Source: an uncultured Lachnospiraceae bacterium
GTDB lineage: Bacteria; Bacillota; Clostridia; Lachnospirales; Lachnospiraceae
Assembly (NCBI GenBank): GCA_947178145.1
Contig: CAMWXE010000009.1
Coordinates: 1 to 64,000, forward strand
Length of the DNA stretch: 64,000 nt
Direction: 5' to 3'
A program made the translations under genes and the position numbers. A model generated the notes under the pieces. That model had not been told where the DNA came from and did no database searches. It saw nothing but the letters and a program-made list of their open reading frames with translations. Positions 23,340 to 47,386 of the stretch are shown one piece after another (the stretch's first letter is position 1; the number at the start of each line of letters is the position of its first letter).

Positions 23340-24824
23340 ATGAATCAGAGCAACACACCGCTGCTGCAGGCGGTAACAGAATTGATCGAGACGAAGCCGG
23401 CGTATTTCAGAATACCAGGGCACAGGCTGGATAAGGGGGTCAGTTCCCGCTGGACAGACCAGGTTGGAACGGCGATTTTTGCATATGATGTGACGGAGAC
23501 GCCGCTCACGGATGATCTGCACAGCCCGGAGGGCGCAATCGGCGAGGCACAGCGGCTGCTTGGTGAGCTCTACAGTGCGGATCAGAGCTTTTTCCTTGTC
23601 AATGGGAGTACCTGTGGGAATGAGGCGATGATCATCAGCGCGGCATTTGAGGGTGAGAAGATTATGATCGCCAGAAATGCGCACAAGTCGGCGTTGATGG
23701 GGCTGATCCTGTCCGGTGCAGAGCCGGTGTATGTGATGCCGGAGGTGATTGATGACTGGGCGATACAGGGGGAGATTGCGGCGGAGGCTGTCAGAAAAGC
23801 CTTTGCGGAGAATCCTGACTGCAGGGCGTTGTTTCTGGTGAGCCCAAGCTATTATGGCATATGTTCTGATTTGAGGGCGATTGCGGATATCTGTCATGAG
23901 TACGGTGCGCTTTTGCTGGTGGATGAGGCACACGGGGGACATGTGTACTTTCATGACAGACTTCCTGCCGGAGCGCTTGAGGCGGGAGCGGATGTCTGTG
24001 TGCAGAGTATGCACAAGGTTACAGGTGCGCTGACACAGAGTTCGGTACTGCATATCAAACATCACGGTGTGGGAGAATCCGTATTGGAGCGGATTGCGCA
24101 AAATCTTCAGTTGGTGCAGAGCACAAGCCCAAGTTACCTCCTGATGACCTCGCTTGACTGTGCCAGGTATGAGCTTGCCAGGAATGGGGCAAAAATGATG
24201 GAGAAGGCGCTGCATCTTGCGGCGTATGCAAGGCATAGGATTTGCAAAATATCCGGTTTTCGCTGTATGGAGGGGGAGCGCTTAGACAGGACAAGACTGG
24301 TGATATCGGCGGGGAATATCGGACTGACGGGCTATGCGCTGGAGAAAATACTTTTTGAGGAATACGCTGTCAATATGGAGCTCTCAGACTATGAGAATGT
24401 GCTTGCCATCGTGACCTATGCAAATGAGATAGAAGATATGGACAAACTTGTTGCGGCCTGTGCGGAGATTAGCGGGAGATATGCGGGGCGGGACGCTCTG
24501 CGGAGAGAAGACAGCTATCCGCCATTTCCGCAGCTTCCACAGCAGGTTATGACGCCGCGCAGGGCATATTTTTCGGCTGCTGAGACGGTATGCTGGCAAG
24601 AGGCAGCAGGACAAATCGCCGGGCAGATGATTGCGCCATATCCGCCCGGCATTCCGGTGATTTATCCCGGTGAACGGATCAGCCAGGCAGTATGGGACTA
24701 TATAGAATGTTTTCGGAGAGACGGGAGACAGATTCATGGCGCTGGCCCCAATGGGCGTCTGGATTGGGTGAAGGTGATTGGAACGGAAACAAAAAGTTGC
24801 AAAAATGCAATAGATGAAATATAA
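23340..24824 (+). CDS. Orn/Lys/Arg decarboxylase-like PLP enzyme
   Basis: Fold-type I PLP enzyme of 494 aa. The N-terminal signature is FRIPGHRLDKG. The cofactor site includes FFLVNGSTCGNEAMI (phosphate binding), LLVDEAHGGH (Asp to pyridine N) and SMHKVTGALTQSS (the PLP lysine). The shorter length and C-terminal YPPGIPVIYPGERI motif match the SpeA/YaaO-type group found in Firmicutes rather than the long inducible forms. The likely role is arginine or lysine decarboxylation towards polyamines; the substrate cannot be fixed by eye. The end of the gene contains the -35 element of the next promoter. Confidence 0.88.
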   Translation: MNQSNTPLLQAVTELIETKPAYFRIPGHRLDKGVSSRWTDQVGTAIFAYDVTETPLTDDLHSPEGAIGEAQRLLGELYSADQSFFLVNGSTCGNEAMIISAAFEGEKIMIARNAHKSALMGLILSGAEPVYVMPEVIDDWAIQGEIAAEAVRKAFAENPDCRALFLVSPSYYGICSDLRAIADICHEYGALLLVDEAHGGHVYFHDRLPAGALEAGADVCVQSMHKVTGALTQSSVLHIKHHGVGESVLERIAQNLQLVQSTSPSYLLMTSLDCARYELARNGAKMMEKALHLAAYARHRICKISGFRCMEGERLDRTRLVISAGNIGLTGYALEKILFEEYAVNMELSDYENVLAIVTYANEIEDMDKLVAACAEISGRYAGRDALRREDSYPPFPQLPQQVMTPRRAYFSAAETVCWQEAAGQIAGQMIAPYPPGIPVIYPGERISQAVWDYIECFRRDGRQIHGAGPNGRLDWVKVIGTETKSCKNAIDEI

Positions 24825-24860
24825 TATCTCTTAAAGAGAAAAAATACTCTCTTATAGAGA
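24797..24860 (+). promoter_or_regulatory. Module A: TTGCAA/TATAAT promoter with paired XRE-type operators
   Basis: TTGCAA (24797-24802), 17-bp spacer, TATAAT (24820-24825), then palindrome TCTCTTAAAGAGA (24827-24839) and a second copy TCTCTTATAGAGA (24848-24860), 21 bp apart. The operators cover the expected start of transcription, which suits repression. It is followed 80 bp later by the glycosyltransferase operon. Confidence 0.85.
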
Positions 24861-24939
24861 GTCATTATTGACAGGCAGGACTTGTCTGGAGGAGCAGAGT
24901 GAGAATGCGCATAATATGGTTAAAATAAAGGAGGCAGAT

Positions 24940-26481
24940 ATGAAGTCAAAGAAGTTACTGATTCCGCTGACAGAATTCGTGGAATATATGAGAGAGCATG
25001 TTGGGCTTTGCTTTGCGGTCGCGTTCGCTGTTGTGCTGGTATATGCAAAACAGGCTTTCTCGACGGATTTCTATATTGATGCGGAGGTGATTTTGAATCA
25101 TCCGCATACCATATATAACTGGAATCAGATTGGACGCTTTGGACTGATTGCCCTGAAATATCTGGTTGGAAATAACTGGTATAACCCCTATTTTGAGGCG
25201 GTTCTCTTTTTGGCTTCTCTATGGGGATTGGGAATGGGGATCTCCTGCCTTTTTTATGGGTTTTATGACAGGGGCAGGGAGTACGTTTATTTTATATTTG
25301 TCGCTTTGTTTTTGATATTTCCGACGTATGCAGATCAGTTTATGTTCCGTTTTCAGTCCTTTGAGACGGTGTTTGCCATGCTTTTGGTGGTGCTTGCAAC
25401 ACGCTATTTTTATCTGGGGGTGACCGAAAAAAATTATTGGGCGTATGGGTTAGCCATATTTTTGGATGTATTTTCTTTTGGAATTTACCAGTCTATGGTG
25501 AATTTACAGATCTGTTTCTATATTGCAGTCTATCTGTTCACTGTGGAACAATATGAAAGAGGAGAGTCCAGGAAACTGATCTGTTGTGAATTGGTGCATT
25601 TTCTCATCAGTTTTGCTGTCTATGGTATTATTGTAAAATTATTCTTTGACAGTGGGGACTATCTGAGCAGACAGGTAGGATGGTTTTCCGGAGATCTGAT
25701 GTCAGCGGTTATGAATCTGTTGGCGTACATCAAGCGGATTCTGCTGGCGATGGACAACTTTTATCCGATCACTTATCCTGCATGTGTCTGCGCCTGTATG
25801 GCAATGCTTCTATGGAAGGCATTGTGCCAAAGGCAAAAGCTTTTGTCATATGTCATCGGTTTTGGCGGCATGCTGGCCTCCCCTTTTTTCCTTGCGCTGG
25901 CTACGGGAACGCCATCCCCTTACAGGGCGCAGTGTATGCTTCCGTTTACCTGCGCGGTGCTGTGGCTGTTCTTTGCGTCGTGGCTGCGGGAACGCGGGGG
26001 AGCTCGATGCGCAGCTTGTGTTATATTGGGATGTGTTTTCCTGCTTTGTCAGACTTCTGTTTTGATGAGGATGTTCTATACACAGGATGTCATTCGCGAC
26101 GCGGACCAGATAATCGCGACACAAATAATAGAGAGAATACAGGAAAACAGTACGCCAGACAGCAATAAGCCAGTGGTGTTTCTCGGGCATTTGGATGCGA
26201 AGGGCAACGGTTCTTGTTATACCAGGGCGGAGGCACCATCTTACCTGAGCTATTCTGTATATGAATTTGCCTTTATAGAAGGCGTGCCTGTGGAAACGCC
26301 GGAGTATTTTAATACAGGCAGAATTTTGGGGTATTTTGAGACGCTTGGATTTCCGTATGCGGCGCCATCCGCAGCGGTGGTGGAGGAAGCAAAAGCGGCA
26401 GGTGCGGCGATGGACTGCTGGCCGGCGGCGACTTCCGTGCAGGAAACACAGGAGTATATCGTTGTAAAGTTGAGCGATTAG
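24940..26481 (+). CDS. Membrane glucosyltransferase, GtrII-like (Glucos_trans_II)
   Basis: Integral membrane protein of 513 aa with about ten hydrophobic segments and a C-terminal soluble part (from about residue 415). After the first helix comes DFYIDAEVILNHPHTIYNW, with acidic residues early in an external loop as in GT-C enzymes that use polyprenyl-phosphate glucose. It is typical of the GtrII-like family that decorates surface polysaccharides. The ATG follows AAAGGAGGCAGAT. It is first gene behind operator module A, with an acyltransferase and another membrane GT downstream. Acceptor and sugar are unknown. Confidence 0.75.
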   Translation: MKSKKLLIPLTEFVEYMREHVGLCFAVAFAVVLVYAKQAFSTDFYIDAEVILNHPHTIYNWNQIGRFGLIALKYLVGNNWYNPYFEAVLFLASLWGLGMGISCLFYGFYDRGREYVYFIFVALFLIFPTYADQFMFRFQSFETVFAMLLVVLATRYFYLGVTEKNYWAYGLAIFLDVFSFGIYQSMVNLQICFYIAVYLFTVEQYERGESRKLICCELVHFLISFAVYGIIVKLFFDSGDYLSRQVGWFSGDLMSAVMNLLAYIKRILLAMDNFYPITYPACVCACMAMLLWKALCQRQKLLSYVIGFGGMLASPFFLALATGTPSPYRAQCMLPFTCAVLWLFFASWLRERGGARCAACVILGCVFLLCQTSVLMRMFYTQDVIRDADQIIATQIIERIQENSTPDSNKPVVFLGHLDAKGNGSCYTRAEAPSYLSYSVYEFAFIEGVPVETPEYFNTGRILGYFETLGFPYAAPSAAVVEEAKAAGAAMDCWPAATSVQETQEYIVVKLSD

Positions 26482-26526
26482 GGATAAGATGATACTGCGG
26501 AGCGCGGTTTAAGAGGGAGATTTGAG

Positions 26527-27630
26527 ATGGAGGGGCGTCAAAGAGATGTATTGCCAGATGTTTTAAAAGGCTTTGGCATTGTAATGGTAGTGCTGGGACA
26601 CTGCATTCAGTCGGGCAGCGGGCTGGCATACCTGGAAAACGCATGTTATTTTGAAGACAGATGGTATCAGTTTATCTACAGTTTTCATATGCCGTTGTTT
26701 ATGATAATCAGCGGTTATTATGCATGGAACAGCGTTCAGAGGGCAGCAACTCCAAAGGACCGGAAAACAATGCTCAGGAAGAAGTGTATCTACCTGATTA
26801 CGCCAAATGTCGGATGGAAGCTGATTGAATTTGTGTATCTGTTTGCCACGGATTCTTACATTTACTGGGGTTTTGGTGTATTTCTAAAGGATCTGGTTCT
26901 TGGCATATTGGAGAATTTCTGGTTTTTGTGGGCAATTTTGTACGCCTTTTTGCTGGTTTGCCTGATGCATTACCGGCTTCGGGATTCTATATGGATCTAT
27001 ATTCTGATTTTTGTGGCGATGTTTTTCACGCCGGATGGAATGGCACTGAATGCATATAAGTATATGCTGCCATATTATCTGATCGGTTTTTATGGAAATA
27101 AAAATAAAAAGCGGCTGTCGTCAGCAAAGCTTTATCAGGAAATCTTTCAAAAGGGAAGTCTGCGGACTGGCGTGGCGGTGCTGGTGAGCGGAATTGTGTT
27201 TTTGGCATTGTTTTCTTTTTTTACAGCAGATTCTTTCATTTATCTGACTGGATATAAGCTGATTGGGAAAAATTATATGGTGCAGCTGCAGATTGACTTG
27301 TACCGGTTTCTTGTGGGGCTTTGCGGCATTGTCTTTTGGATATTTGTGTGGAAGATGCTGCTTGACCTGTGCCGGAAGTGGGATTATCGAGCGCGGGTGC
27401 TTGCGTATCTGGGAAAGAGAGGACTTGGAATTTATATTATTTCCGGGATACTGGTGCTGCATGTGGTGCATCCAGTCACTGCAGACTGGGAGCCGCGGTA
27501 CGGGGTGAACGTGGCAGAGACATTGCTGGTGCTGCTTGCTTCCGCTGTCATTGTGGAAGGGATGAGAAGGATCAGGGGGATATGCCGGCTTGTCGGAGAA
27601 GAGCGAAGATGTGGATCAACAAGAGGATAG
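26527..27630 (+). CDS. Acyltransferase 3 family membrane protein
   Basis: Multi-pass protein of 367 aa. The N-terminal DVLKGFGIVMVVLGHC motif (catalytic-type His) and SFHMPLFMIISGYY are the signatures of acyltransferase-3 enzymes, which move acetyl or similar groups onto sugars or lipids at the membrane. The C terminus RGLGIYIISGILVLHVVH is also typical. It lies 45 nt after the GtrII-like gene and 12 nt before the next, so it is part of the operon. The presumed role is O-acylation of the surface glycan made or decorated by its neighbours. Confidence 0.85.
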   Translation: MEGRQRDVLPDVLKGFGIVMVVLGHCIQSGSGLAYLENACYFEDRWYQFIYSFHMPLFMIISGYYAWNSVQRAATPKDRKTMLRKKCIYLITPNVGWKLIEFVYLFATDSYIYWGFGVFLKDLVLGILENFWFLWAILYAFLLVCLMHYRLRDSIWIYILIFVAMFFTPDGMALNAYKYMLPYYLIGFYGNKNKKRLSSAKLYQEIFQKGSLRTGVAVLVSGIVFLALFSFFTADSFIYLTGYKLIGKNYMVQLQIDLYRFLVGLCGIVFWIFVWKMLLDLCRKWDYRARVLAYLGKRGLGIYIISGILVLHVVHPVTADWEPRYGVNVAETLLVLLASAVIVEGMRRIRGICRLVGEERRCGSTRG

Positions 27631-27642: not shown

Positions 27643-29049
27643 GTGAGGGAAGAGATGCAGAAACGAAAAGAAACAGAGATAGAACGGCTGATTTGTGCAG
27701 TTTATTTTACGGGATTTCTGGTGATGGCGGTGGCGATGATGGTCTTTCAGCCGCATGTGGATTCGATTTCGGAGGTTCCGGTCAGTCCGCCGGATGAGTA
27801 TTTCAGAATGCTGATTCCGAAGTTTATCTGTGAGCATGGTACACTTCCGACGGGGCTGGAAGAGGAAGTACGAATTACAGGCTGTGGGTTTTCCTATGGT
27901 CTGTACAATGTGCTGCCGTATATTATACAAGGGTACTGTATGCGTCTGGTCAATCTGTTTACGGATTCGCAGCTTGCCTTATTGTATGCCGGGCGTGCAG
28001 TAAATGTCGTCTTCGGGCTTTTGATGGCGTGGGTGGTGTATCTGCTGGGCAGGAGAGTTTTTAAAGACAGCCGTTTTCGCTGGCTGTTTTGCTTTGCGGT
28101 GATGTATCTGCCGATGAATCTGTTTGTTCACACCTATATAAACACGGATTCCTGCTGCATGTTGTCCACAGCGGTGATTCTATATGCGCTGGTATGTGCT
28201 TACCAGGATGGATTTGATTACAAAAACAGTATATGGCTGAGTATTGGCATTGTTCTCTGCGCGCTTTCTTACTATAATGCATACGGATATATTCTGAGCA
28301 GTATGATTCTGTTTGTGGGCTATTTTCTCACGAAGCAGGGGCGATGGCGCTTTGACTGGAAGCGTATGCTGAAATATGGGATTTTTATCAGTGTGCTGGT
28401 ATTGACAGGTGCAGGCTGGTGGTTTGTCAGAGCGTATTTTGTCCTGGACGGCGATATTCTGGGATTAAAGACCAAGGAGCAGCTGGCGCTTCTGTATGCC
28501 CTGGAGGAGACCAGTCCGCTGAACACCTATCAGGCAAAGGGAATTGGCATCTGGCAGATGCTCGAGGAGAATCAGTTTTTTCAGTGTCTGTATGACAGTT
28601 TTATCGCAGCGTTCGGATCGCTGTGTATCCGGGGGAACCGATGGACATACCTGTCCTATAAGCTGTTTTTTGGCGCGGGGATACTGGGATGGATTGCGGC
28701 ATGGATTTTTGACCCGGATATGAGAAAATGGAACGGCAGACGGGTATTCTTTCATTTGAATCTGTTTTTGTGTGCCATTCTTCCTTTGCTTATTATGATT
28801 GATTATGCATACACGATGAATTATCAGCACCAGGGAAGATATATACTGCCTTCTCTGATTCCGATTATGTATTATGCTGTGCGGGGAATAGAAACGCTTG
28901 CGGCAGTAAAAATAAAACGCTGTGCGCTGCCAAAGATTTTGGTGAATGCAGGTGTTGCGTTTGCATTGTTTATAGCGATAGGAAGTGCAGTTTATATGGT
29001 CTTTTTCCGGGCGCTTCCTGTTTATCGGACGATGGGGATGATGTATTGA
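27643..29049 (+). CDS. Multi-pass membrane protein, GT-C / DUF2142-like
   Basis: A 468-aa protein with about eleven hydrophobic segments. The first external loop carries PPDEYFRMLIPKFICEHGTLP, with the acidic DE pair expected in GT-C glycosyltransferases (GT39-like or DUF2142). An interior YAYTMNYQHQGRYILPSLIP motif resembles DUF2142 members. The start is GTG 13 nt after the preceding stop, behind AGAGGAGAC; ATG at 27655 is an alternative. It probably transfers a lipid-linked sugar outside the membrane (inferred). It is the last gene of the module A operon. Confidence 0.65.
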   Translation: MREEMQKRKETEIERLICAVYFTGFLVMAVAMMVFQPHVDSISEVPVSPPDEYFRMLIPKFICEHGTLPTGLEEEVRITGCGFSYGLYNVLPYIIQGYCMRLVNLFTDSQLALLYAGRAVNVVFGLLMAWVVYLLGRRVFKDSRFRWLFCFAVMYLPMNLFVHTYINTDSCCMLSTAVILYALVCAYQDGFDYKNSIWLSIGIVLCALSYYNAYGYILSSMILFVGYFLTKQGRWRFDWKRMLKYGIFISVLVLTGAGWWFVRAYFVLDGDILGLKTKEQLALLYALEETSPLNTYQAKGIGIWQMLEENQFFQCLYDSFIAAFGSLCIRGNRWTYLSYKLFFGAGILGWIAAWIFDPDMRKWNGRRVFFHLNLFLCAILPLLIMIDYAYTMNYQHQGRYILPSLIPIMYYAVRGIETLAAVKIKRCALPKILVNAGVAFALFIAIGSAVYMVFFRALPVYRTMGMMY

Positions 29050-29193: not shown

Positions 29194-30792
29194 ATGAAAA
29201 AAAAGTGGAAATTAGGTATGCTCCTGACACTGCTTTTGGTGTTTGTTATGCAAATGACCGTTATGGCAGCAGGCGAGTCGGTCACGATCAATTACTGTTA
29301 TATTGAAGGTGATCAGGTCATTGTAATCGGCAGCGGTGCAGTTGCAGCAAGCGATGATGGAAATTATTATCTGTTTGCGCTGAAACCATATGAAGCAGGG
29401 GTGGGTGCCAGAACAGATTATTGTGCGTCTGCACCGGCAGCAGAGCTGGTTCAGTTCACAACACCGTTAGGGCTTGACACGGCCGCTTCGAAGCTGTATT
29501 CAAGATTCGTTGTTACTGCTCTGCGCGGTGGCGCATTTGTTCCAGTAAGTACGGAAATGTACATCACAAATCCGGAAGCTGTTGCAAAGGCATCCACAAA
29601 GAGCATCGCAGAAGCAACAGGAAACAAAAAGGGTCTTTACTGTGGATGGCAGTATGCACAGTATCTTTCAGACCTCGGTGCCGGCTATGTGGCATCAGTT
29701 CTCAACACAGCAGATTTCTTTAATGGCGGCGGCGTTAATTATACATACAATGGGAAGACATACCAGTTTAATGCGCAGCAGGTTCAGTCAACAGATATTT
29801 TGGTAAGGCTTTATAATGCGCAGAATGTTGACATTGTTATGACAATTGTGAACGGGTATAACGCTGCAAATGCGGATATGGTATATCCGGAAGCACTGAC
29901 AACTGGCAAGCATCCCAATTACTATGCGTTTAATGTCGAAAATCCATCTGGTGAAGAGAAGCTGGAAGCATTTATGTCATTTATTTCAGAGCGTTATAGC
30001 GGCGGACAGTATGGTTCCATACACAATTATGTGATCGGCAATGAGGTAAACAGCAGTGATTCATGGCATTATGCAGGCGAGATTTCAGTGGACGAGTTCG
30101 CTGTAAAGTATGCAAAACAGTTCCGCGTATGCTACAATGCGATTAAGAGCCATAACATGGGTGCAAATGTTTATATTTGTACAGACCAGAGATGGCTGCA
30201 TAACGATGGCGGAAGTTCTTATGGCGGCAAACCTGTACTTGATGGGTTTAACGCAGAAATCTTAAGAACAGGAAATATTAACTGGGGTCTTTCTTTCCAT
30301 CCATATCCGGCACCGCTGGCAAATACAAACTTCTGGACAGACGCACCTGGTTATGGACCGTTGAGACTGGTTGACCATACAGAGAATACAAAGATGATCA
30401 CTCCGCTGAATATGGAAGTTGTGACCAATTATATGCAGAAACCAGAATATCTTGCACCATCAGGGGCTGTTAGAAATATCTTTATTTCAGAGTTAGGATT
30501 CAGCTCTATGTCTACTGTAAGTCCAGGGGTGGACGAGGGTGTTCAGGCGGCAGCTCTTGTATATGCATTTAAGCTGATTCAGGCAAATCCATATATTAAA
30601 GGTGTTGCTTTTAACAGTGTGATCGATAATGATTTTGAGGTGGCAAATGACAAGCTGGCAGTAGGCTTGATGAGAAGTGATACTGCACAGAAACCTGCAT
30701 ATAGTGCATTCCAGAATATGGATAAGGCAAATATGGATCATTTCCTGCCATATATCGGAGCATCCAGCTGGGCACAGCTTGGTGTTCAATAA
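29194..30792 (+). CDS. Secreted DUF5722 family glycoside hydrolase-like protein
   Basis: Exported protein of 532 aa with a signal peptide (residues 1-25, cleavage after VMAA). A beta-rich N-terminal domain runs to about residue 125. A large TIM-barrel-like domain follows, with HNYVIGNEVNSSDSWHYAG (Asn-Glu near 282-283) and IFISELGFSSMS (Glu near 433). An NE pair and a later Glu at these distances match acid/base and nucleophile of clan-A glycosidases, so hydrolysis of a surface polysaccharide is inferred. The family matches DUF5722 from memory. It has its own promoter and a strong terminator and lies inside the glycan locus. Confidence 0.75.
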   Translation: MKKKWKLGMLLTLLLVFVMQMTVMAAGESVTINYCYIEGDQVIVIGSGAVAASDDGNYYLFALKPYEAGVGARTDYCASAPAAELVQFTTPLGLDTAASKLYSRFVVTALRGGAFVPVSTEMYITNPEAVAKASTKSIAEATGNKKGLYCGWQYAQYLSDLGAGYVASVLNTADFFNGGGVNYTYNGKTYQFNAQQVQSTDILVRLYNAQNVDIVMTIVNGYNAANADMVYPEALTTGKHPNYYAFNVENPSGEEKLEAFMSFISERYSGGQYGSIHNYVIGNEVNSSDSWHYAGEISVDEFAVKYAKQFRVCYNAIKSHNMGANVYICTDQRWLHNDGGSSYGGKPVLDGFNAEILRTGNINWGLSFHPYPAPLANTNFWTDAPGYGPLRLVDHTENTKMITPLNMEVVTNYMQKPEYLAPSGAVRNIFISELGFSSMSTVSPGVDEGVQAAALVYAFKLIQANPYIKGVAFNSVIDNDFEVANDKLAVGLMRSDTAQKPAYSAFQNMDKANMDHFLPYIGASSWAQLGVQ

Positions 30793-30837: not shown

Positions 30838-31974
30838 TTAAGCTTTTGTGAATGGCATGCGATGGTAGAGGAACAGCAGTAATGCTTTGATGCAATCGAT
30901 TCCCATGGAAATCAACAGACAACAGATAAAAACAACAATAGGATAGAAAATATCATATCCTAATTTGGTGATCAGATTAGGGGTAATGCCAATCGTAACT
31001 GCGTATATTCTGTTTCCAATACCGCGGTAATTCAGGAAAAGAAACACAGCCATATGAATTAAGTAGATCCAGTAGGTTTTCTTGCCAATATAGTTTATGA
31101 CTTTGCTCCAACGGGGAGGCGTTTCTCTTGCAAAGGTCAGGAAAAAGCCGGCAAAGCAGACTGTGAATACGAGCGACACAGCGGTAGTCCAATAGTAAAA
31201 ATAATTGTTTTCCAGTGTTCGCTGAAAAAGGACACACTGCAAAATAAAACGCACGATATTGATACCGACCATAGCTGCCGGGAATAAAATTCGGTATTTC
31301 CAGTTATTTTTGAAACGGTGTTGATTCTGATAAAGCACATACCCAATCAGTACATAGGTAAGTGAGACATCAAATATCACAAAAGTGCCAATTGTACCAA
31401 ATTGAGATGGAAATAATGCCTGCAAGTCTGACACAAACATGCTGATGACATTGATTGCAATAATCCATCGGCAGACCTTCGGGGAGAGGGGATGTTCTAA
31501 GGTCAGCAGCTTTAATAGTGGAAATAAGATGACAATGCGCAGGTATGAAGTAATATACCATAGATGTGTGCTGAAGTTTCCCTCAAGAAAATTCAGTGTT
31601 ACAAAGTGGCGCAGCAGTTCTGTAAAGTTGAATGCAGGGTGCGCCAGGCATTCCAGCAAGGAAGCTTCGTTGGTAATCCAATTGTCCAGCACCTGGAGAC
31701 CGATCTTTAACAGAAGTACTGGTATTAGAATTCTGCAGAAGGTTTTTCCGACAGATTTCCAGAAAGGTTCTTTCGTGGCCGGCAGAAAGAATCCCATAAT
31801 CAAAAAGAATACAGCAACACCATCATCAAAAAATCCATGTATCAGCAATAGCTCCTTATCAAGTCCTCCATTAATGACGGGCTCCGCACGGACATGACAG
31901 CCAATCACAATAAAACAGGCAAAAATCCGCATTAATTGGACGCGGTAATCGTATTTGTCATATTTTTGCAACAT
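30838..31974 (-). CDS. Acyltransferase 3 family membrane protein
   Basis: Multi-pass protein of 378 aa. VQLMRIFACFIVIGCHVR near residue 12 carries the conserved Arg and His of acyltransferase-3 enzymes, and GVAVFFLIMGFFL follows as the second signature. It differs from the copy at 26.5 kb and has closest overall shape to surface-polysaccharide O-acetyltransferases (WecH-like). The ATG follows CCAGGAGGAACTATT. It is the only gene of this region on the minus strand and has its own promoter. Confidence 0.85.
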   Translation of the reverse strand: MLQKYDKYDYRVQLMRIFACFIVIGCHVRAEPVINGGLDKELLLIHGFFDDGVAVFFLIMGFFLPATKEPFWKSVGKTFCRILIPVLLLKIGLQVLDNWITNEASLLECLAHPAFNFTELLRHFVTLNFLEGNFSTHLWYITSYLRIVILFPLLKLLTLEHPLSPKVCRWIIAINVISMFVSDLQALFPSQFGTIGTFVIFDVSLTYVLIGYVLYQNQHRFKNNWKYRILFPAAMVGINIVRFILQCVLFQRTLENNYFYYWTTAVSLVFTVCFAGFFLTFARETPPRWSKVINYIGKKTYWIYLIHMAVFLFLNYRGIGNRIYAVTIGITPNLITKLGYDIFYPIVVFICCLLISMGIDCIKALLLFLYHRMPFTKA

Positions 31975-32000
31975 AATAGTTCCTCCTGGTATTTTGCTAC

Positions 32001-32028: not shown

Positions 32029-32091
32029 TATAGCATAGCAATATATCGGATGTAAATAGATTTTGCCTGCAAATTAATTTTTTGAAAGTTG

Positions 32092-32120
32092 TTGCATCTA
32101 TTTGTTGTAAACGGTACAAT
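32092..32120 (+). promoter_or_regulatory. Promoter of the DUF6020-like gene
   Basis: TTGCAT (32092-32097), 17-bp spacer, TACAAT (32115-32120). The -35 resembles the TTGCAA of modules A-D but no operator palindrome follows. Confidence 0.55.
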
Positions 32121-32178
32121 GGTGAATGAATGTTTCGAAGGGTATCATAATAAGACTATCGGAGAAGGGGGAAGTGAG

Positions 32179-33801: not shown

Positions 33802-33816
33802 CAGGGGGGAATCGTG

Positions 33817-36237: not shown

Positions 36238-36306
36238 TTGCAAGTATTTATAGAATGATGTATAATGAATATCTCTCAAAGAGAAGATAAACCTCTCTTT
36301 TAGAGA
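36238..36306 (+). promoter_or_regulatory. Module B: TTGCAA/TATAAT promoter with paired XRE-type operators
   Basis: TTGCAA (36238-36243), 17-bp spacer, TATAAT (36261-36266), TCTCTCAAAGAGA (36272-36284), TCTCTTTTAGAGA (36294-36306), 22 bp apart. It drives the lipoprotein, MBOAT, SGNH and AlgX-like genes. Confidence 0.83.
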
Positions 36307-39584: not shown

Positions 39585-39597
39585 AGGACAGGAATAC

Positions 39598-40680
39598 ATG
39601 AGAAGAGAGTGGGAAGAGAAGCAGATTGGGATATGGTTTTATGTGATATTGTTCTGGGTGTTATGCCTGATTCCCTCGGTTGGAATGCTGTTCTATGGCT
39701 CAGAACTTGCAGAGAACAGGGAATTATCAAAAGTACCCTCACCCCGGACAGAGGATGGCAGATGGAACAGTGATTATTTTGGGGAACTGCAGACCTATGT
39801 ATCGGAACATTTTGCATTCCGGGGAGAGCTGGTTATAGCAGACAGTTTGATAAAATATAAACTTTTTCATACGCCCAGTGATGACCAGGTAGTGATCGGG
39901 AAAGAGGGATGGCTCTTCTTTGGGGAGACGCTGGCAGATTATGCGGGAGTTACGATGACGGACAGCGAGCTTGACCAGATTGCGTCAAAGATGAAAGAGG
40001 TATGTGATTATATGAAAAGCAAGGGAAAACAGCCGCTTTTCGTTATCGTACCGAATAAAAACCAGATTTATCCCGAATATATGCCTGCGCGTTTTGGCGG
40101 TAAAGCAGAGCAGAATAATCTGACACTTTTGCAGGAGAAGCTGCAGCAGACCGGTGTGCCGTATGTAGACGCATACCATCTTTTACTGGAAGGAAAGGCG
40201 GAAGACGAGCTGTATCTGCACGAGGACACACACTGGAACAATACAGGGGCAAGGCTTGTCCTGAATGAGATCTATGAAGTGTATGGTCTGGCAGACCGCT
40301 ATGAACTGGCAGGATATCAGATTGAGGAGAACCACAGTCCAGATCTGTATGCGATTCTGTTTCCGGCAGAAGCGCATTTTGAAGCGCAGCGCATTTATGA
40401 GGATGGCAAGAGTTGTCAGTATATTGGCAGGATGCATAGTGTGGATGATATAAAGATTCGCACAGCGGCTGATGATGGAAATGGAATGTCCATACTTGTC
40501 TATCGCGACAGCTTTGGCAGGGCACTGATACCATATATGGGCCAAACATTTGACAGTGTGACATTTCATCGATCGACACCGTATGATCTTTCCATGGTGG
40601 AAACTACGGAGTGTGACTACGTTCTGATTGAGATTGTCGAGCGCAATCTTGCGGATTTGGGACAGATACAAATACCCTGA
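39598..40680 (+). CDS. AlgX/AlgJ-like SGNH O-acetyltransferase (DHHW-type)
   Basis: A 360-aa protein with an N-terminal membrane anchor (about 12-34) and an external ALGX-type SGNH domain. Motifs include ENRELSKVPSP, the GKEGWLFFGE strand, YLHEDTHWNNTGA (Asp and His of the triad) and LVYRDSFGRALIPYMGQ (Ser in RDSFG). In alginate-type systems such proteins accept acetyl groups via AlgI and esterify the polysaccharide. The ATG chosen follows AGGACAGGAATAC. It closes the module B operon; a perfect hairpin terminator follows. Confidence 0.85.
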   Translation: MRREWEEKQIGIWFYVILFWVLCLIPSVGMLFYGSELAENRELSKVPSPRTEDGRWNSDYFGELQTYVSEHFAFRGELVIADSLIKYKLFHTPSDDQVVIGKEGWLFFGETLADYAGVTMTDSELDQIASKMKEVCDYMKSKGKQPLFVIVPNKNQIYPEYMPARFGGKAEQNNLTLLQEKLQQTGVPYVDAYHLLLEGKAEDELYLHEDTHWNNTGARLVLNEIYEVYGLADRYELAGYQIEENHSPDLYAILFPAEAHFEAQRIYEDGKSCQYIGRMHSVDDIKIRTAADDGNGMSILVYRDSFGRALIPYMGQTFDSVTFHRSTPYDLSMVETTECDYVLIEIVERNLADLGQIQIP

Positions 40681-40762: not shown

Positions 40763-41620
40763 TTAAAAGTTAAAAAATATATGTGGAGATGACTCATTTA
40801 CAACAGTTTTGCCATTCTCTAAAATCCTTCCACGATAGCCGACAGACAATTTTCCACTGAATCCTTCCGGAACGAGTGCATACCAGGAGAAGCAAGAGTA
40901 ATCATTACTACCCATTTCCCACGTTTCAAAAAGCTGGCATCCTGGATATTCGATACCGTTATGGGATACTGTAAACGTAGCCGCATGCAGTACCCAGCCA
41001 TTTTCATCAATATAGTCCCACAAACTATCACAACTGGTAATGCTATCATCATAAGTATACGATTGAACTCTTAAAAAGTCGCCCTTGCTGATATCAATGT
41101 CCATTAAAGTTGTGCCTGCTACAGAAGCATCGGTGGTGGCCCACACATCGATTTTTCTCCACTCGTATCCAGGCAGGGTATAATCTGCCAGATAACCAGG
41201 AAAGTACTCATAAGCGTTGCCTTTGCTAAATGAAATATTTACCATGCAGTCCTCGTAATTGTATTGGGCTGAATGGATACTTGGAAATCTGTACGTTGCT
41301 CCTTCTACTGCTATAATATTTCCGGAATCGTCCGGTTGTGTCTGTGATGCTGTACCCTGGTAGGGCAGTATGTTTGCTGGGTCAAGTGTAGCGGCGTTAT
41401 AGGGCTGTCTGCCTTCAGCTGCACCGTGCTGCGTATAGTGCACATAAAGCGCATCTGCAGAGGTGCCAAGTGCCCATCCGGCCACGTCCGGATTCTGTTC
41501 CAGATACCACTCCGGGTCGAAGACTGCACCGTCAGCCATATACTGCGGGGCCGCGCATACAGAGATGCTGCTGCTTAAGATTGTAGCTGCCGCTACAGAT
41601 AACAATAGTTTTTTCTTCAT
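40763..41620 (-). CDS. Secreted protein with FDPEWYLEQNPDV-type surface repeat
   Basis: Exported protein of 285 aa with a clear signal peptide (residues 1-23, ending VCAA). Residues about 30-75 hold one copy of a motif widespread in Lachnospiraceae secreted proteins: FDPEWYLEQNPDV, then HYTQHGAAEGRQPY. The remainder (about 105-285) is beta-rich and ends FNF, with no recognised family. The ATG follows CGGAGGAATTACAAC. Its promoter carries the TCTC palindrome between -35 and -10, so it belongs to the same regulon although it is transcribed in the opposite direction. Confidence 0.78.
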   Translation of the reverse strand: MKKKLLLSVAAATILSSSISVCAAPQYMADGAVFDPEWYLEQNPDVAGWALGTSADALYVHYTQHGAAEGRQPYNAATLDPANILPYQGTASQTQPDDSGNIIAVEGATYRFPSIHSAQYNYEDCMVNISFSKGNAYEYFPGYLADYTLPGYEWRKIDVWATTDASVAGTTLMDIDISKGDFLRVQSYTYDDSITSCDSLWDYIDENGWVLHAATFTVSHNGIEYPGCQLFETWEMGSNDYSCFSWYALVPEGFSGKLSVGYRGRILENGKTVVNESSPHIFFNF

Positions 41621-41669
41621 GTTGTAATTCCTCCGTTTTTGTGTTTTGTAATAATTATCCAACAGAGAT

Positions 41670-41698
41670 AGTATACTTCTCTTTAAGAGAATAATCAA
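41670..41698 (-). promoter_or_regulatory. Module E: promoter with XRE-type operator in the spacer
   Basis: On the minus strand: TTGATT (41693-41698), 17-bp spacer, TATACT (41670-41675). The palindrome TCTCTTAAAGAGA (41678-41690) fills the spacer. A degenerate second copy (TCTCTGTTGGATA) follows 22 bp on. Binding here would block polymerase directly. Confidence 0.78.
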
Positions 41699-41835: not shown

Positions 41836-41900
41836 TTGCAAATTTTCTGATAATCCAGTATAATGTCTCTTATAGAGAATAGAACAAGCTCTATAAGAGA
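41836..41900 (+). promoter_or_regulatory. Module C: TTGCAA/TATAAT promoter with paired XRE-type operators
   Basis: TTGCAA (41836-41841), 17-bp spacer, TATAAT (41859-41864), TCTCTTATAGAGA (41866-41878), GCTCTATAAGAGA (41888-41900), 22 bp apart. It drives SGNH-like paralogues 2 and 3 and probably those beyond. Confidence 0.83.
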
Positions 41901-42085: not shown

Positions 42086-43090
42086 GTGAAGAAAAAGGTT
42101 ATGACAATTTTATTGTGTTTGCTATTTTTATGTACTATTGCAGCGGATTCAATTTCTGTGGTGGCAGCACAGATGTTCTACGAGAGCGATCAGGAATATC
42201 ATGAGGAGGGATACATTTTTATAGGGGAAAGTCATATTGGCATTGCAATGGCTTACATAGGGAATGCGACAGATGAAATGGGGAATGTTCCCAATGTCAA
42301 TGGTGTGAAGTTCTTCTATACAGATAATGGTTCAGACAATTATATCATGAAGGGAAATCTGTTTTTTGTATGTGAGGGAACAGATAAGAAAACACAGTCG
42401 GCTAAGGAGTATATCTACAGTGATGGAAATGGGAAGCGGGGCAAAGCAGTTGAACGGGTACATGCGATTATAGAATCAAATCCCAACATAGCACATTGGA
42501 ATATTATTTTGTATCAGGGTACAGCGCAGGCAAAGTCGGGAAGTCAAAGTATAGCGGACTACTACGTGAATTCTTACGAAAACTGGATTGATTATGAGTT
42601 TCCAGAGGCGGATATCTATTTTTTATCCATATCGACAATGACAAAGTATTTTAGGGGATGCAGAAATCCGGAACTGCTAAATGACACGCTGCGCAGCGCG
42701 TTCCCGGATACTTTTCTGGACTATACAGAATTTTATAACCAGAGATACCCACAGGGAATGTGGGATCCAAGTCAAAAAACGGACACCGTACATTGGAGCT
42801 GGAATACATATCTGGATCTGGTCACAGGTGTTATCACAGAAGTGCAAAACAGGCGCGGGGACGTTGATACTGTGAACATCGTTGTGACGGATACAGAGGC
42901 GGTACTCTATACAAATGACAGTACTGTCATTTATTCCGTACCAGATCTGAGTGGAGCGGTTTTGTTTGCAGAGCTGGAAACAGGGCTTCCCATTCATGTG
43001 ACAGGAACAACAGAAAATGGATTTTTCCGTATTGATTTGGGTGAGATAACAGCATATGTTGATTTGACAGGACTGAGCACAGCACAATAA
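42086..43090 (+). CDS. Secreted SGNH-like protein with SH3-like tail, paralogue 2
   Basis: A 334-aa exported protein. A signal peptide (residues about 1-28, ending VVAA) precedes QMFYESDQEYHEEGYIFIGESH, with the candidate nucleophile Ser in GESH. TDTVHWSW gives the Asp/His pair. It shares the KGNLFFV, KEYIYSDGNG, NPNIAHWNII and NQRYPQGMWDP blocks with paralogue 1. The GTG start follows AAAGGAAGAGG. A frame open 36 codons further upstream runs through the conserved leader and would spoil the signal peptide, so it is rejected. It is first gene behind module C. The C-terminal SH3-like part is nearly the same as in paralogue 3. Confidence 0.75.
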   Translation: MKKKVMTILLCLLFLCTIAADSISVVAAQMFYESDQEYHEEGYIFIGESHIGIAMAYIGNATDEMGNVPNVNGVKFFYTDNGSDNYIMKGNLFFVCEGTDKKTQSAKEYIYSDGNGKRGKAVERVHAIIESNPNIAHWNIILYQGTAQAKSGSQSIADYYVNSYENWIDYEFPEADIYFLSISTMTKYFRGCRNPELLNDTLRSAFPDTFLDYTEFYNQRYPQGMWDPSQKTDTVHWSWNTYLDLVTGVITEVQNRRGDVDTVNIVVTDTEAVLYTNDSTVIYSVPDLSGAVLFAELETGLPIHVTGTTENGFFRIDLGEITAYVDLTGLSTAQ

Positions 43091-43115: not shown

Positions 43116-44189
43116 ATGAAAGGGTTCAAAATGTTTTGGAAAAGAAAGTGGACAAGGAGGTTAAGGGGGATTGCTGCCTGTCTGTCTCTGTGTCTGGCAT
43201 TGCTGCAGGTACAGACAGTCTGTGCCATGACAATATATATGAGTGACGGGGAGGCGTATGAGGAAGGTTACATTTTTGTCGGGGAGAGTCATGTCGGCCT
43301 GCTGGCTCGGACAATTGGCGACTGGACGAATGCGGAGGGCGACGTGAACGGACTTTCTGGCGTTCGATTTTTGTATCAGGAAGATGGTTCCGTGTCGGTG
43401 CTTGAGGATGGAAGACCAAATACAATGTATATGAAAGGAAATCTGTTTTTTGTATTTGAAGGCTGGAGTGGTGGGAGTGATCTTGCTATACAGACAAACA
43501 AGAACTACATATTTAGCGACGGACAGGGAAAACGTGGCCGTGGCGTGGAGCGTGTGCATGAGATCATGGACATGAATCCGAATATAGGACACTGGAATAT
43601 TATATGCTATCAGGGCACAGCAGCTTCCGCGGTTGACAGTGGAGCAAATCTTGGGAAGTATTATGTGGATTCCTATAGAAACTGGATCGAGTATGAGTTT
43701 CCAGAAGCAGATATTTATTTTCTGTCACACTCAACAATGACAAAGTTTTACAGGAGCCATAAGGAGAAAAACGGCATTAACAACGCGCTGTCCGCAGCAT
43801 TTCCAGAGCGCTATCTGGATTATATGAGTTTCTTTCAGGAGCGCTATCCACAGGGAATGGCAGATCCAATGGAGCGATCGGATACCCTTCACTGGAGCAG
43901 TGTGACATACACAGAGCTGTTCACAGATATTATTCAGAGAATACAGCAGAATCGCGGAATCGATCATAATACAGTGGAAGCAGCTGTGACAGATGTAGAG
44001 GCGGTACTCTATACAAATGACAGTACGGTCATTTATATGTCGCCCGATTTGCGCGGTGCGGTTCTGTTTGCAGAGCTGGAAACAGGGCTTCCCATTCATG
44101 TCACGGGGATAACGGACAATGGATTCTTTCGTATTGATATGGGTGAGATAACAGCATATATTCACGGAGAGGGACTTAGCGATGTGTGA
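43116..44189 (+). CDS. Secreted SGNH-like protein with SH3-like tail, paralogue 3
   Basis: A 357-aa exported protein. The basic N terminus (KRKWTRRLRG) and hydrophobic core end VCAM before TIYMSDGEAYEEGYIFVGESHVG. SDTLHWSS supplies the Asp/His pair. It differs from its relatives in a longer loop after the first block and in ISHSTMTKFYRSHKEK replacing the usual ISTMTK region. It starts 25 nt after paralogue 2 with GGAGAAGG. The catalytic role is inferred as for paralogue 1. Confidence 0.75.
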   Translation: MKGFKMFWKRKWTRRLRGIAACLSLCLALLQVQTVCAMTIYMSDGEAYEEGYIFVGESHVGLLARTIGDWTNAEGDVNGLSGVRFLYQEDGSVSVLEDGRPNTMYMKGNLFFVFEGWSGGSDLAIQTNKNYIFSDGQGKRGRGVERVHEIMDMNPNIGHWNIICYQGTAASAVDSGANLGKYYVDSYRNWIEYEFPEADIYFLSHSTMTKFYRSHKEKNGINNALSAAFPERYLDYMSFFQERYPQGMADPMERSDTLHWSSVTYTELFTDIIQRIQQNRGIDHNTVEAAVTDVEAVLYTNDSTVIYMSPDLRGAVLFAELETGLPIHVTGITDNGFFRIDMGEITAYIHGEGLSDV

Positions 44190-44210: not shown

Positions 44211-44330
44211 TTTGTCCTTTAAGGGATTGCGGAATGAAGCCTACCGGATCACGGGCAGATAAGCGCGGATACAGAGACTGTGAAAGCGGACAGTTTGGTA
44301 CAACAGGATGACAATTAAAAGGAGGAAGTG
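44211..44330 (+). promoter_or_regulatory. Conserved leader, copy 2 (possible structured RNA)
   Basis: Second copy of the leader found at 41916-42029, without an upstream TTGCAA/operator module. The 16-mer ATAAGCGCGGATACAG is at 44259-44274. Here GGAGGAAGTGTGCGTG leads straight into paralogue 4. It either spread by tandem duplication of leader plus gene or is kept as an RNA element. Confidence 0.5.
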
Positions 44331-44333
44331 TGC

Positions 44334-45425
44334 GTGAAGACTAAGGGCATAAGTTCAGGACAACGATGGAGGCAGTCTCTGAAAGGAATTTTTTGCGTTG
44401 TTATGGCACTGGTGTTTGCGGTTTTGCCTTGTGTAAATGCAAAAGCGGTGACATTTTACGAGAGTGATGGTGCAAGCTATGAAGAGGGGTATATTTTTGT
44501 GGGCGAGAGCCATATGGGGATTGCAAGCACCCATATTCTGGATGATACAGATCATTCAGGGATGATCCCTGGACTTGACGGTGTCTTGTTTAATCTGGAA
44601 TGGGAGGGAGGACTGTATGGATCGTATCGTATGAAAGGGAATTTGTTCTTTGTATTTGGCGGTACGAATGCGCAGAACGAGGAGGCGACGCAGACGAGCA
44701 AGGATTATATCTATAGTGATGGGAAGGGGCAGCGTGGTCTGGCTGTAACTAAGATTCATGAAATTATGGATAAGAATCCCAATATTGCGCACTGGAATAT
44801 CATATCGTATCACGGAAGTGTACAGGCAAAGATTCTGGAGGGAAGGACGATTCCGAATTATTATGTGGCCTCTTATCGAAATTGGATGGAATACGAGTTC
44901 CCGGAGGCGGATATTTATTTTCTTTCTATTTCAACGATGACCAAGTATTACAGGGGAGCAGCCAATCCGGATTTATTAAACAGGGTATTGAAGGAGGCAT
45001 TTCCAGACAACTTTTTGGATTACACAGAATTTTATAACCAGAGGTATCCACAGGGAATGTATGACCCGACATTGCGGTCGGATACGATACACTGGAGTCC
45101 GAAGACCTATACAGAACTGATTGTGAGCGTCATCCAGGAGACACAGCGCAGGCGGGAGATTGCGAAGGCATCAGTGGTTCCAGAGCCTGTGGAAGTGATC
45201 GTCACAGATGCAGAGGCGGTGCTCTATACCAATGACAATACCGTCATATATTCTGTACCAGACTGGAATGGAGAGGTGCTTTTCGCAGAGTTGGAGGTTG
45301 GTCTTCCCATTCACGTCACGGGTATAACGGACAATGGATTTTTCCGTATTGATTTGGGTGAAATAACAGCCTATATTCATGGAGTAGGACTGAGTGAAGC
45401 ATGGGAAGGCCAGACGGCCAATTAA
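44334..45425 (+). CDS. Secreted SGNH-like protein with SH3-like tail, paralogue 4
   Basis: A 363-aa exported protein with a signal peptide ending near VNAKA, then VTFYESDGASYEEGYIFVGESHMG. SDTIHWSP is the Asp/His motif. It is closest to paralogue 1 in the catalytic part (KGNLFFVFGG, TKIHEIMDKNPNIAHWNIIS), while its SH3-like tail is closest to paralogues 2 and 3. That mosaic suggests recombination. GTG at 44334 is chosen for 8-nt spacing to GGAGG; GTG 44328 is only 2 nt away. Confidence 0.75.
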   Translation: MKTKGISSGQRWRQSLKGIFCVVMALVFAVLPCVNAKAVTFYESDGASYEEGYIFVGESHMGIASTHILDDTDHSGMIPGLDGVLFNLEWEGGLYGSYRMKGNLFFVFGGTNAQNEEATQTSKDYIYSDGKGQRGLAVTKIHEIMDKNPNIAHWNIISYHGSVQAKILEGRTIPNYYVASYRNWMEYEFPEADIYFLSISTMTKYYRGAANPDLLNRVLKEAFPDNFLDYTEFYNQRYPQGMYDPTLRSDTIHWSPKTYTELIVSVIQETQRRREIAKASVVPEPVEVIVTDAEAVLYTNDNTVIYSVPDWNGEVLFAELEVGLPIHVTGITDNGFFRIDLGEITAYIHGVGLSEAWEGQTAN

Positions 45426-45439: not shown

Positions 45440-45465
45440 AAAGCGAGTACTGATGTACTCGATTT
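45440..45465 (+). terminator. Hairpin between SGNH-like paralogues 4 and 5
   Basis: CGAGTAC-TGAT-GTACTCG with AAAA and TTTT flanks. Probably a partial terminator or attenuator. Confidence 0.6.
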
Positions 45466-45556
45466 TGCCTATATAGGAAAGTGCGGTTTGCCACCAGTTT
45501 GGAGATAAAACGGAAGATTGACAATGAGGGAAACAATGAAAGGAAGCGTTGATTTT

Positions 45557-46588
45557 ATGAGAAAGAGATTTGTAAGTGGCTTTATGGTGATAATGTTCTG
45601 CCTGTTTATGGCTTTGCCGGTGAATGCTATGACTGTGTATGAGAGTGATGGTATTGTACATGAAGAAGGCTATATTATCATTGGGGAAAGTCATGCAATC
45701 AATACAGCGAGGGCGATCGGTGACAGGGCAGAGGCTGCTGGAAATATGTTTCAGTGGGGAGGGACAGATATTTCATATGAATTTCAGTGGGATGGAAGTA
45801 TCGAGGTGACACCAGAAGGGGCTCCAAACACGTTTCGGATGAAAGGAAATCTATTTGTTGTGTTTGAGGGGATTTCGCAGAAAACAGACGGAAAGACACA
45901 GTGCAGCTATGAGTATATCTATAGCGATGGAAAAGGAAAACAAGGGCGCGGAGTACAAAAAATACATGAAATTATGGATGGCAATCCCAATATCCTTCAT
46001 TGGAACATTATTTCTATGTGTGGCGCATCTTCGGCAGGAAAAGGAAAAGCGGTTGCCGATATCTGCGCAGCTTCTTATAGAAACTGGATTGAGTATGAAT
46101 TTCCAGAAGCGGACTGCTATTTTCTTTCGATTGCAACAAACAAAAAGTATTATAGACATGTGCAGGACAGACATGTCTATAACCGTACGCTGGCAGCAGC
46201 ATTTCCAGAGGAATTTTTAGATTATACGGATTTCTATGAGGAAAGATATCCGGAGAGACTTGTCGATACCATTCATTGGGACGATGAAACTTATATTGAC
46301 CTCATTGTCGATGTACTCTGGAAAATTGAGGAGAGAAGGAGCGCGGCGGAAAAAGATTCTCCTGCGGAGTATGCAGTTACAGCATTGCAGGATATATTGT
46401 ACACAAATGATCAAACTGTGGTTTATGACTGTCCTGACTTTCGCGGGCGTGTGATATTGCATTCCTGTGCCGGGGGATTGCCCGTGCAGATATCGGGTGT
46501 GACGGACAATGGATTTTATCAGATTGATTTAGGCGGAGCAGTTTATTATGTTCCGGAGACAGGACTGTCGAGGTCAGAGCAGCAATAG
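45557..46588 (+). CDS. Secreted SGNH-like protein with SH3-like tail, paralogue 5 (most divergent)
   Basis: A 343-aa exported protein. Signal peptide MRKRFVSGFMVIMFCLFMA onward ends VNAM, then TVYESDGIVHEEGYIIIGESHA. The catalytic pair is in VDTIHWDD. The NQRYPQGMWDP block is shortened to EERYPERLVDT, and the KGNLFVVFEG and HEIMDGNPNILHWNIIS blocks remain. Its SH3-like tail has drifted (SCAGGLPVQISGVTDNGFYQIDLG). The start follows AAAGGAAG; ATG 45536 (after GAGGGAAA) is an alternative. A structured terminator follows, then the convergent XRE gene. Confidence 0.75.
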   Translation: MRKRFVSGFMVIMFCLFMALPVNAMTVYESDGIVHEEGYIIIGESHAINTARAIGDRAEAAGNMFQWGGTDISYEFQWDGSIEVTPEGAPNTFRMKGNLFVVFEGISQKTDGKTQCSYEYIYSDGKGKQGRGVQKIHEIMDGNPNILHWNIISMCGASSAGKGKAVADICAASYRNWIEYEFPEADCYFLSIATNKKYYRHVQDRHVYNRTLAAAFPEEFLDYTDFYEERYPERLVDTIHWDDETYIDLIVDVLWKIEERRSAAEKDSPAEYAVTALQDILYTNDQTVVYDCPDFRGRVILHSCAGGLPVQISGVTDNGFYQIDLGGAVYYVPETGLSRSEQQ

Positions 46589-46691: not shown

Positions 46692-47024
46692 TTATGTCTC
46701 GCTGTCAGTGACATTCTGCGTGATCATGACCTGCATTGCCGCAAGGATTATCTGAAGCTGCTTGTCCGTACACTTGTGTGCGCAGTTGTTGACTTCTTGT
46801 ATCAGGGGGCTGTTGCTTGCAGATAGAAAGATCAGACTGTCGAGAGATAGATTTAGAATGTCACAGAGCTTAAAAAGTACTTTGACCGATGGCATGCGAT
46901 GTTCGCTTTCCAGATGCATGTAGTGAACAGGTGAAATATCTACCAGTTCCGCAACCTGCTCTTGTGTGAGATTCATTTTGATGCGCGCTGCGCGTATTGC
47001 ATTTCCTAAAGTTCCTTTTTCCAT
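46692..47024 (-). CDS. XRE family transcriptional regulator (SinR-sized)
   Basis: A 110-aa protein with an N-terminal HTH_3 domain (residues about 6-62: IRAARIKMNLTQEQVAELVDIS, recognition helix near SPVHYMHLESEHRMPSV). The C-terminal stretch of about 45 residues ends in a predicted helix (TDKQLQIILAAMQVMI) that may dimerise. The ATG follows AAAGGAGAATATAT; an in-frame ATG 16 codons upstream lacks a site. It sits at the end of the glycan locus, and copies of the TCTC palindrome lie in front of it. It is therefore the natural candidate for the protein that binds modules A-E and its own promoter. Binding is inferred. Confidence 0.88.
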   Translation of the reverse strand: MEKGTLGNAIRAARIKMNLTQEQVAELVDISPVHYMHLESEHRMPSVKVLFKLCDILNLSLDSLIFLSASNSPLIQEVNNCAHKCTDKQLQIILAAMQVMITQNVTDSET

Positions 47025-47064
47025 ATATATTCTCCTTTCTTTATTGAGTATTCGTTTTTCGGAT

Positions 47065-47150
47065 ACTCTCAATAAGCATATAGAGAATAGAATTTGATGA
47101 AAACAAGCAAAGAGAGAAATAAAAGTCTCAATAAGAGACTAAAAGAGACA
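47065..47150 (-). promoter_or_regulatory. Module F: XRE-type operator cluster upstream of the XRE gene
   Basis: One perfect-length palindrome (plus strand TCTCAATAAGAGA, 47126-47138; minus TCTCTTATTGAGA) lies with overlapping half-sites (47067-47086 and 47135-47149). A weak minus-strand promoter TTGCTT / TATTCT is possible within this span. This suggests autoregulation. Confidence 0.6.
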
Positions 47151-47321
47151 AAACAGGTGGAAAATTGGAAAATTATAGTTCTCTGTGCGAGATAGTCAGC
47201 GCATATCATGAGCGTTACTTTTTCTGCAATGAAATCAGATAAAAGGGTAGGATATCAATATTTGAACCGTATTTTTAGTTGTCCCAAAATATCGAACGAT
47301 CACTGATAAGGTAAAAAGTAG

Positions 47322-47386
47322 TTGCAATTTCTCTTATAAGGAAGTACAATCTCTCTTAAAGAGAATAAATAAATCTCTTAAAGAGA
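47322..47386 (+). promoter_or_regulatory. Module D: TTGCAA/TACAAT promoter with two (plus one partial) operators
   Basis: TTGCAA (47322-47327), 17-bp spacer, TACAAT (47345-47350), then TCTCTTAAAGAGA at 47352-47364 and 47374-47386, 22 bp apart. A partial copy TCTCTTATAAGGA (47330-47342) is in the spacer. It points to the right, away from the XRE gene. No ordinary gene begins within 300 bp. Confidence 0.83.

Follow-up and report, generated by a model that had tools for sequence, protein, structure and literature searches.

Phased operators and a putative XRE-type regulator at a predicted surface-glycan-modification locus of an uncultured Lachnospiraceae bacterium

To our knowledge, the regulation of surface glycans in gut Lachnospiraceae is little understood. 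Lambda CI and the C proteins of restriction-modification systems repress a divergent promoter through tandem phased operators and act on their own promoter from upstream. The reported half-site consensus of SinR, GTTCTYT (PMC3163267), contains TCTYT, and the XRE factors RtrA, RtrB, CdxA and CdxB of Caulobacter are reported to repress hfiA, which affects the polysaccharide adhesin holdfast (PMC10688885). The locus described here lies on contig C9 of an uncultured Lachnospiraceae genome (5.48 Mb in 200 contigs; own genome, G000), of which bases 1–64,000 form the window, i.e., the whole stretch that was analysed. At 24.8–48.9 kb, the window carries a cluster of membrane glycosyltransferase-like, acyltransferase, MBOAT/AlgX and secreted SGNH-type genes, together with xre, the gene of a 110-residue XRE-type protein (Table 1). 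Judging from sequence patterns, we consider it highly probable that this protein is the dedicated regulator of a surface-glycan-modification locus, acting through phased operators in the target promoters. A description of this operator or regulon was not found in the open-licence literature searched.

Target promoters and their operators

The target promoters share an architecture that is rare in the genome and coupled both to the regulator and to that protein's recognition helix. The operator palindrome has the consensus TCTCTnnnAGAGA, with the arms TCTCT-N3-AGAGA. A preliminary description of this DNA had listed four promoters with two palindromes each, 21–22 bp apart, and both direct reading and a scan recovered them on the plus strand, starting at 24797, 36238, 41836 and 47322 (promoters 1, 2, 4 and 5), each with TTGCAA, exactly 17 bp and TATAAT (TACAAT at 47322), followed by a palindrome pair spaced at 21 bp in promoter 1 and at 22 bp in the other three. 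Similarly, the minus-strand promoter at 41698–41670 (promoter 3), for which a palindrome between -35 and -10 had been noted, has a perfect-arm site inside its spacer. Two weak operators, each with two mismatches, go beyond that description: a third site in the spacer of promoter 5 and a second one at promoter 3.

Slot positions are counted from the -10. Thirteen of the 14 loci searched have promoters that combine a 17-bp spacer with a site, 21 such promoters in total, and in 20 of these a palindrome (≤2 mismatches) lies 7 bases past the start of the -10, the exception being promoter 2, where the operator pair is displaced 4 bp downstream relative to the other promoters, to +11. When identical copies were merged and three other genera added, 18 loci gave 25 distinct promoters in four genera, with promoter 2 outside the rule, across which the palindromes keep fixed offsets from the -10; 42 of 51 sites (≤1 mismatch) near -10 boxes occupy slots -15, +7, +28 or +29. 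The operators are thus tandem, helically phased at 21–22 bp, and overlap a promoter.

Rigid modules, under a rule that leaves out promoter 2 for its operator shift, occur four times in the window (24797, 41836, 47322 and 41698 minus) and in none of 100 dinucleotide shuffles, whatever the threshold tried; site pairs likewise number four, against none in each of 30 shuffles. A loose count of TCTCTTAWAGAGA (≤3 mismatches) gives 60 matches, against an average of 29 in the shuffles and at most 49 in any of the 100, about twofold above chance, so the weight falls on strict sites and phasing. Genome-wide, with one mismatch allowed, there are 24 distinct places, 10 of them in this 22.6-kb stretch, while the 14 elsewhere are not above a reversed-pattern control (26 matches); the binomial P for this clustering, about 3e-18, is inflated because the motif itself was derived from this locus. 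Strict pairs are confined to this locus in the 5.48-Mb genome, which speaks against a motif equally common everywhere. On contig 111, and so outside the window, a further pair (11951/11973) sits in a correct promoter that precedes a homologue of the 40763–41620 gene; with its full operator promoter, that homologue (L120, 11943–12957) is a likely regulon member outside the cluster.

The regulator and its coupling to the operators

The xre protein is an ordinary small HTH_3 regulator, with a PF01381 score of 54.2 bits against a curated cut-off of 23, and a Pfam scan recognised no sensor domain in its 110 residues. Of the 33 XRE matches in the genome, only that at 46695–47024 (minus) lies on this contig, in keeping with the preliminary description. 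Its structure model has two C-terminal helices (residues 73–84 and 88–108) with block values of the predicted local distance difference test (pLDDT) of 56–69, and structure matches mostly span residues 1–74; for comparison, SinR has a C-terminal helical-hook oligomerisation domain in common with its antagonist SinI.

Coupling was followed in 38 genomes of the genus, own genome included, and in 397 genomes of the family. Orthologues of xre (76–98% identity) occur in 10 of the 38, an eleventh genome, G026, matching at 35% only; the nine named records holding an orthologue are all metagenome-assembled genomes (MAGs) of uncultured Lachnospiraceae. Strict pairs are present in six genus genomes, all among the 10 with an orthologue, and in none of the 28 others (Fisher P 8e-5, shared descent not corrected for). 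At ≤3 mismatches, pairs at the 22-bp phase lie near xre in all 10 xre-bearing genomes; five of the 28 others (G002, G006, G012, G018 and G026) have one lone three-mismatch match each, roughly as often as the reversed pattern gives one (4 of 38 genomes). An operator promoter is present in all 10 xre-bearing genomes, next to xre in nine of them and within about 3 kb of it in G004.

The strongest result came from a blind pattern scan of the 397 family genomes (22-bp pair, ≤1 mismatch), which returned two matches, the own genome and G409, which belongs to a different genus. In G409 the two sites of the pair begin 132 and 110 bp ahead of an xre gene, with a weak third site at 88 bp. This gene is divergent to a lipoprotein-like gene, and its product is 41% identical to the window protein over 104 residues; the two recognition regions, TPTHMKHLESEHRKPS and SPVHYMHLESEHRMPS, have HLESEHRxPS in common. 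The co-occurrence of module and regulator in related genomes, raised in the preliminary description, is therefore seen both within the genus and beyond it. In addition, a profile search of the 397 genomes with the XRE alignment gave 36 matches in 32 genomes, 30 of them with the locus read. An HxxH[LI]ESEHRxPS region was found in four of these 30, from four genera (G409, G250, G354 and G472), and all four xre genes have tandem sites 21–22 bp apart upstream, with 1+0, 0+2, 1+2 and 2+3 mismatches, respectively; the operator unit of G472 is TCTCTTTAAGCT, present twice. Under a uniform rule (promoter module ≤700 bp upstream of xre, threshold of 5 mismatches over the two best slots), the module is found at 12 of 14 XRE genes with this helix, G004 and G354 being missed, compared with 0 of 97 other XRE genes (26 from the profile search and 71 more; P 2e-14). 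This threshold lets in G472, a locus seen before it was set, and one step stricter (4 mismatches) 11 of 14 score, again with none of the 97. In the own genome, 29 further XRE loci were examined by the uniform rule, and none has the module.

Upstream of xre itself, TTTTCA (or TTTTAA, TTTAAA), 17 bp (16 in G472) and TATGCT form a predicted promoter in 12 of the 14 family members checked, the string not being found in G409 and G354. With +1 taken as 12 bases from the start of the -10, the palindrome copy already noted before xre lies at -64, and such a site (one or two mismatches) is centred on -64 or -65 in all 10 genus orthologues. A second site, centred at -118 and new here, recurs at -118 to -120 in 8 of 10 (one or two mismatches); the sites are at -43/-65 in G250 and at -42/-64 in G472. 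Unlike the operators at target promoters, they overlap neither the predicted -35 nor the -10, a placement which, by position alone, fits control of xre from activator-like positions, and the fixed site at -64/-65 suggests autoregulation. By eye, an imperfect inverted repeat was also seen after the xre -10 and ahead of the ribosome-binding site of the gene (47040–47076), with a similar one before xre in G004 and inverted repeats of different sequence in the same place in G037/G015, G014 and G017.

Proposed regulation and alternative readings

It is proposed that XRE dimers would bind the TCTCT-N3-AGAGA palindromes, perhaps cooperatively, two or three of which would be occupied per target promoter at intervals of 21–22 bp, or two helical turns: in the -35/-10 spacer, immediately after the -10, where they would cover the predicted transcription start, and at a distance of 28/29 bp from the -10. 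Because the operators sit in these fixed slots, binding should block RNA polymerase, and the phased dimers would most likely repress their targets. XRE would probably also control its own gene from the -64 site, and the cluster products are predicted to modify a surface glycan.

The palindromes could instead be bound by another regulator, xre being a neighbour by chance or linkage, and weak operator-like promoters kept in G002 and G031, where xre was not found, would agree with this; but the blind pair in another genus adjoins an xre with the same recognition helix, the module accompanies 12 of 14 XRE genes with that helix and none of the 97 others compared, and the operator promoter on contig 111 shows that the operators are not merely linked DNA, so we hold this explanation to be unlikely. 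Little credence is likewise given to XRE acting mainly as an activator of the target promoters. XRE proteins can act as activators, and the sites at -64/-65 of the predicted xre promoter (-43 in G250, -42 in G472) fit such positions, but the target operators occupy the spacer, the start and positions beyond the start, where a bound protein should impede the polymerase, and the target -35 and -10 are near consensus (TTGCAA/TATAAT), so an activator seems unneeded.

Two further explanations are exceedingly improbable. In phase-variable glycan loci of other bacteria, promoters are flanked by inverted repeats, and the palindromes might likewise be recombination sites of invertible or shuffling promoters; against this, their offsets from the -10 are fixed in 25 distinct promoters of four genera, and a recombinase family was matched by none of the 20 window proteins scanned. 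The palindromes might also act in RNA as leader hairpins, as the copy at +28/29 would be transcribed, but the -15 slot is untranscribed, the +7 slot spans the predicted start, and the unit, judged from its sequence alone, is a 5-bp stem with a 3-nt loop.

Several observations weigh against a dedicated glycan repressor. Near-identical pairs (G037/G015 and G014/G017) make the 14 family members non-independent; G354 has a poor -10 and a second site one base off; and in G004 the gap between xre and the DUF3048 gene lacks the module. Repression need not be the role of every family member, and the -64 site of xre fits activation equally. Eight xre-bearing genomes are interleaved with others on an rpoB tree of 30 genomes, so xre is patchy and gain, loss or missing assembly must have happened repeatedly. 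Degenerate operator-like promoters occur in G002 (before a DUF3048 gene) and G031, and a weaker one, identical in both, in G003 and G024, all genomes in which xre was not found; as these are MAGs and contig ends truncate the cluster in G003 and G024, loss of xre and non-assembly are indistinguishable. The divergent gene is lipoprotein-like in G409 and G250, and no glycan gene was seen beside xre in G354; the glycan link, clear in the window genus, is independently backed by only one of the four other genera, that of G472, which also has the most degenerate operators. There, a promoter (TTGAAA-17-TATAAT) with degenerate operators faces an operon divergent to xre, encoding three glycosyltransferases, a UDP-GlcNAc 2-epimerase, an ABC-2 permease and ATPase, an SIS protein and an NAD-dependent epimerase; the whole has the look of a locus for polysaccharide export. 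The switching of a glycan-modification programme by XRE, as the preliminary description had it, is supported in that the operators track the regulator across species, and only partly in its glycan side. As side observations, the HLESEHR-type xre and the divergent export operon of G472 (L343, 10102–18477) lie in a single-contig genome; the degenerate promoters in genomes without a found xre are at L270 (4883 plus), L271 (9623 minus), L113 and L118, and those of G002, G003 and G024 precede DUF3048 genes.

More speculatively, the dedicated regulator might work as a lambda-like two-way surface switch, with heritable glycan-on and glycan-off states that need no DNA inversion, and might belong to an old, portable regulator–operator pair of Lachnospiraceae (41% protein identity). 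One XRE would then turn off several glycan-modification promoters by binding their helically phased operators, and would activate its own weak promoter, TTTTCA-17-TATGCT, from -64/-65 in the window genus or from about -42 and -64 in G250 and G472. The regulator, operator code and promoters are predicted to the base pair, and the HLESEHRxPS signature predicted the operator in other genera, so that a direct test would need no more than a single purified protein and short duplexes of DNA; the site at the xre promoter makes the idea of a heritable on/off switch testable.

Gene content and comparison with known systems

As shown in Table 1, the gene types named in the preliminary description (GtrII-like, acyltransferases, MBOAT/AlgX and secreted SGNH-like) were recovered through Pfam matches and an SGNH alignment and model. 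The SGNH-type proteins (5 in the window, 15 aligned) have GESH (block I) in common, with GN and DxxH invariant among them, and the model of protein B finds among its best matches Bacteroides acylhydrolases and sialate O-acetylesterases, with OatA catalytic domains lower down. The five secreted paralogues (38529–46588) match no Pfam family above cut-off; relatives with E below 1e-40 occur in 15 of 38 genus genomes, and in 17 further genomes the matches go no lower than E 1e-10 to 1e-14 and mostly cover the C-terminal region.

Table 1. Coordinates of the predicted regulatory features and genes in the window
Feature	Position	Strand	Basis or remark
Promoter 1	24797..24860	+	TTGCAA-17-TATAAT; operators 24827-24839, 24848-24860 (slots +7, +28)
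GtrII-like membrane glucosyltransferase	24940..26481	+	first gene after promoter 1; PF14264, E 1.9e-24
OafA-type membrane acyltransferase	26527..27630	+	PF01757
DUF2142 membrane protein	27649..29049	+	Pfam scan
DUF5722 protein	29194..30792	+	Pfam scan; signal-like N-terminus (by eye)
Second OafA-type acyltransferase	30838..31977	-	Pfam scan
DUF6020 membrane protein	32089..33801	+	Pfam scan
776-residue membrane protein (by eye)	33814..36144	+	no Pfam family above cut-off
Promoter 2	36238..36306	+	operators 36272-36284, 36294-36306 (shifted: +11/+33)
Lipoprotein-like secreted protein (by eye)	36350..37123	+	no Pfam family above cut-off
MBOAT O-acyltransferase (DltB/AlgI type)	37143..38516	+	PF03062, E 7e-31; TIGR04091 below its cut-off
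Secreted SGNH-type protein A	38529..39584	+	alignment
AlgX-like acetyltransferase	39562..40680	+	PF16822
Secreted protein of unknown family	40763..41620	-	contig 111 homologue also behind operator promoter
Promoter 3	41656..41698	-	TTGATT-17-TATACT; spacer operator 41678-41690; weak second 41656-41668 at +7
Promoter 4	41836..41900	+	operators 41866-41878, 41888-41900 (one mismatch)
Secreted SGNH-type protein B	42086..43090	+	alignment; modelled, SGNH-hydrolase fold
Secreted SGNH-type protein C	43116..44189	+	alignment
Secreted SGNH-type protein D	44328..45425	+	alignment
Secreted SGNH-type protein E	45518..46588	+	alignment
xre, HTH_3 regulator	46692..47024	-	PF01381; recognition region SPVHYMHLESEHRMPS
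Predicted xre promoter	47075..47103	-	TTTTCA-17-TATGCT
Operator at -64 of predicted xre start	47126..47138	-	one mismatch
Second upstream xre site, centred at -118	47180..47192	-	one mismatch
Promoter 5	47322..47386	+	TTGCAA-17-TACAAT; operators 47330-47342 (weak), 47352-47364, 47374-47386 (slots -15, +7, +29)
DUF3048 protein behind promoter 5	47566..48882	+	PF11258/PF17479

The closest solved sequence to the XRE protein is 3IVP (residues 5–93, E 6e-11), a putative transposon-related DNA-binding protein of Clostridioides difficile 630, whose recognition region differs (IDPRYLTNIENKGQHPS vs ISPVHYMHLESEHRMPS) and for which we know of no operator. SinR, the biofilm-matrix repressor of Bacillus subtilis, is likewise small and XRE-type, with inverted-repeat operators at surface-polymer promoters, and the half-site core TCTCT found here falls within its TCTYT (PMC3163267, as cited above). 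The analogy with SinR drawn in the preliminary description thus holds for the promoter logic and the half-site core, whereas sequence searches gave no special kinship: SinR is not among the 26 PDB sequences similar to XRE at E up to 10, a result by which kinship is not excluded. The Caulobacter factors RtrA, RtrB, CdxA and CdxB are also XRE proteins that affect a surface polysaccharide, but their effect, in an alphaproteobacterium, goes by way of a gene for a holdfast inhibitor (PMC10688885). Meanwhile, structure matches of the XRE model list 3clc, the C.Esp1396I tetramer on a 35-base operator. As with Lambda CI and the C proteins, tandem helically phased operators overlap the target promoters, with repression here predicted; unlike those systems, no phage or restriction-modification context was seen in the genes scanned, and the predicted targets are surface-glycan genes.

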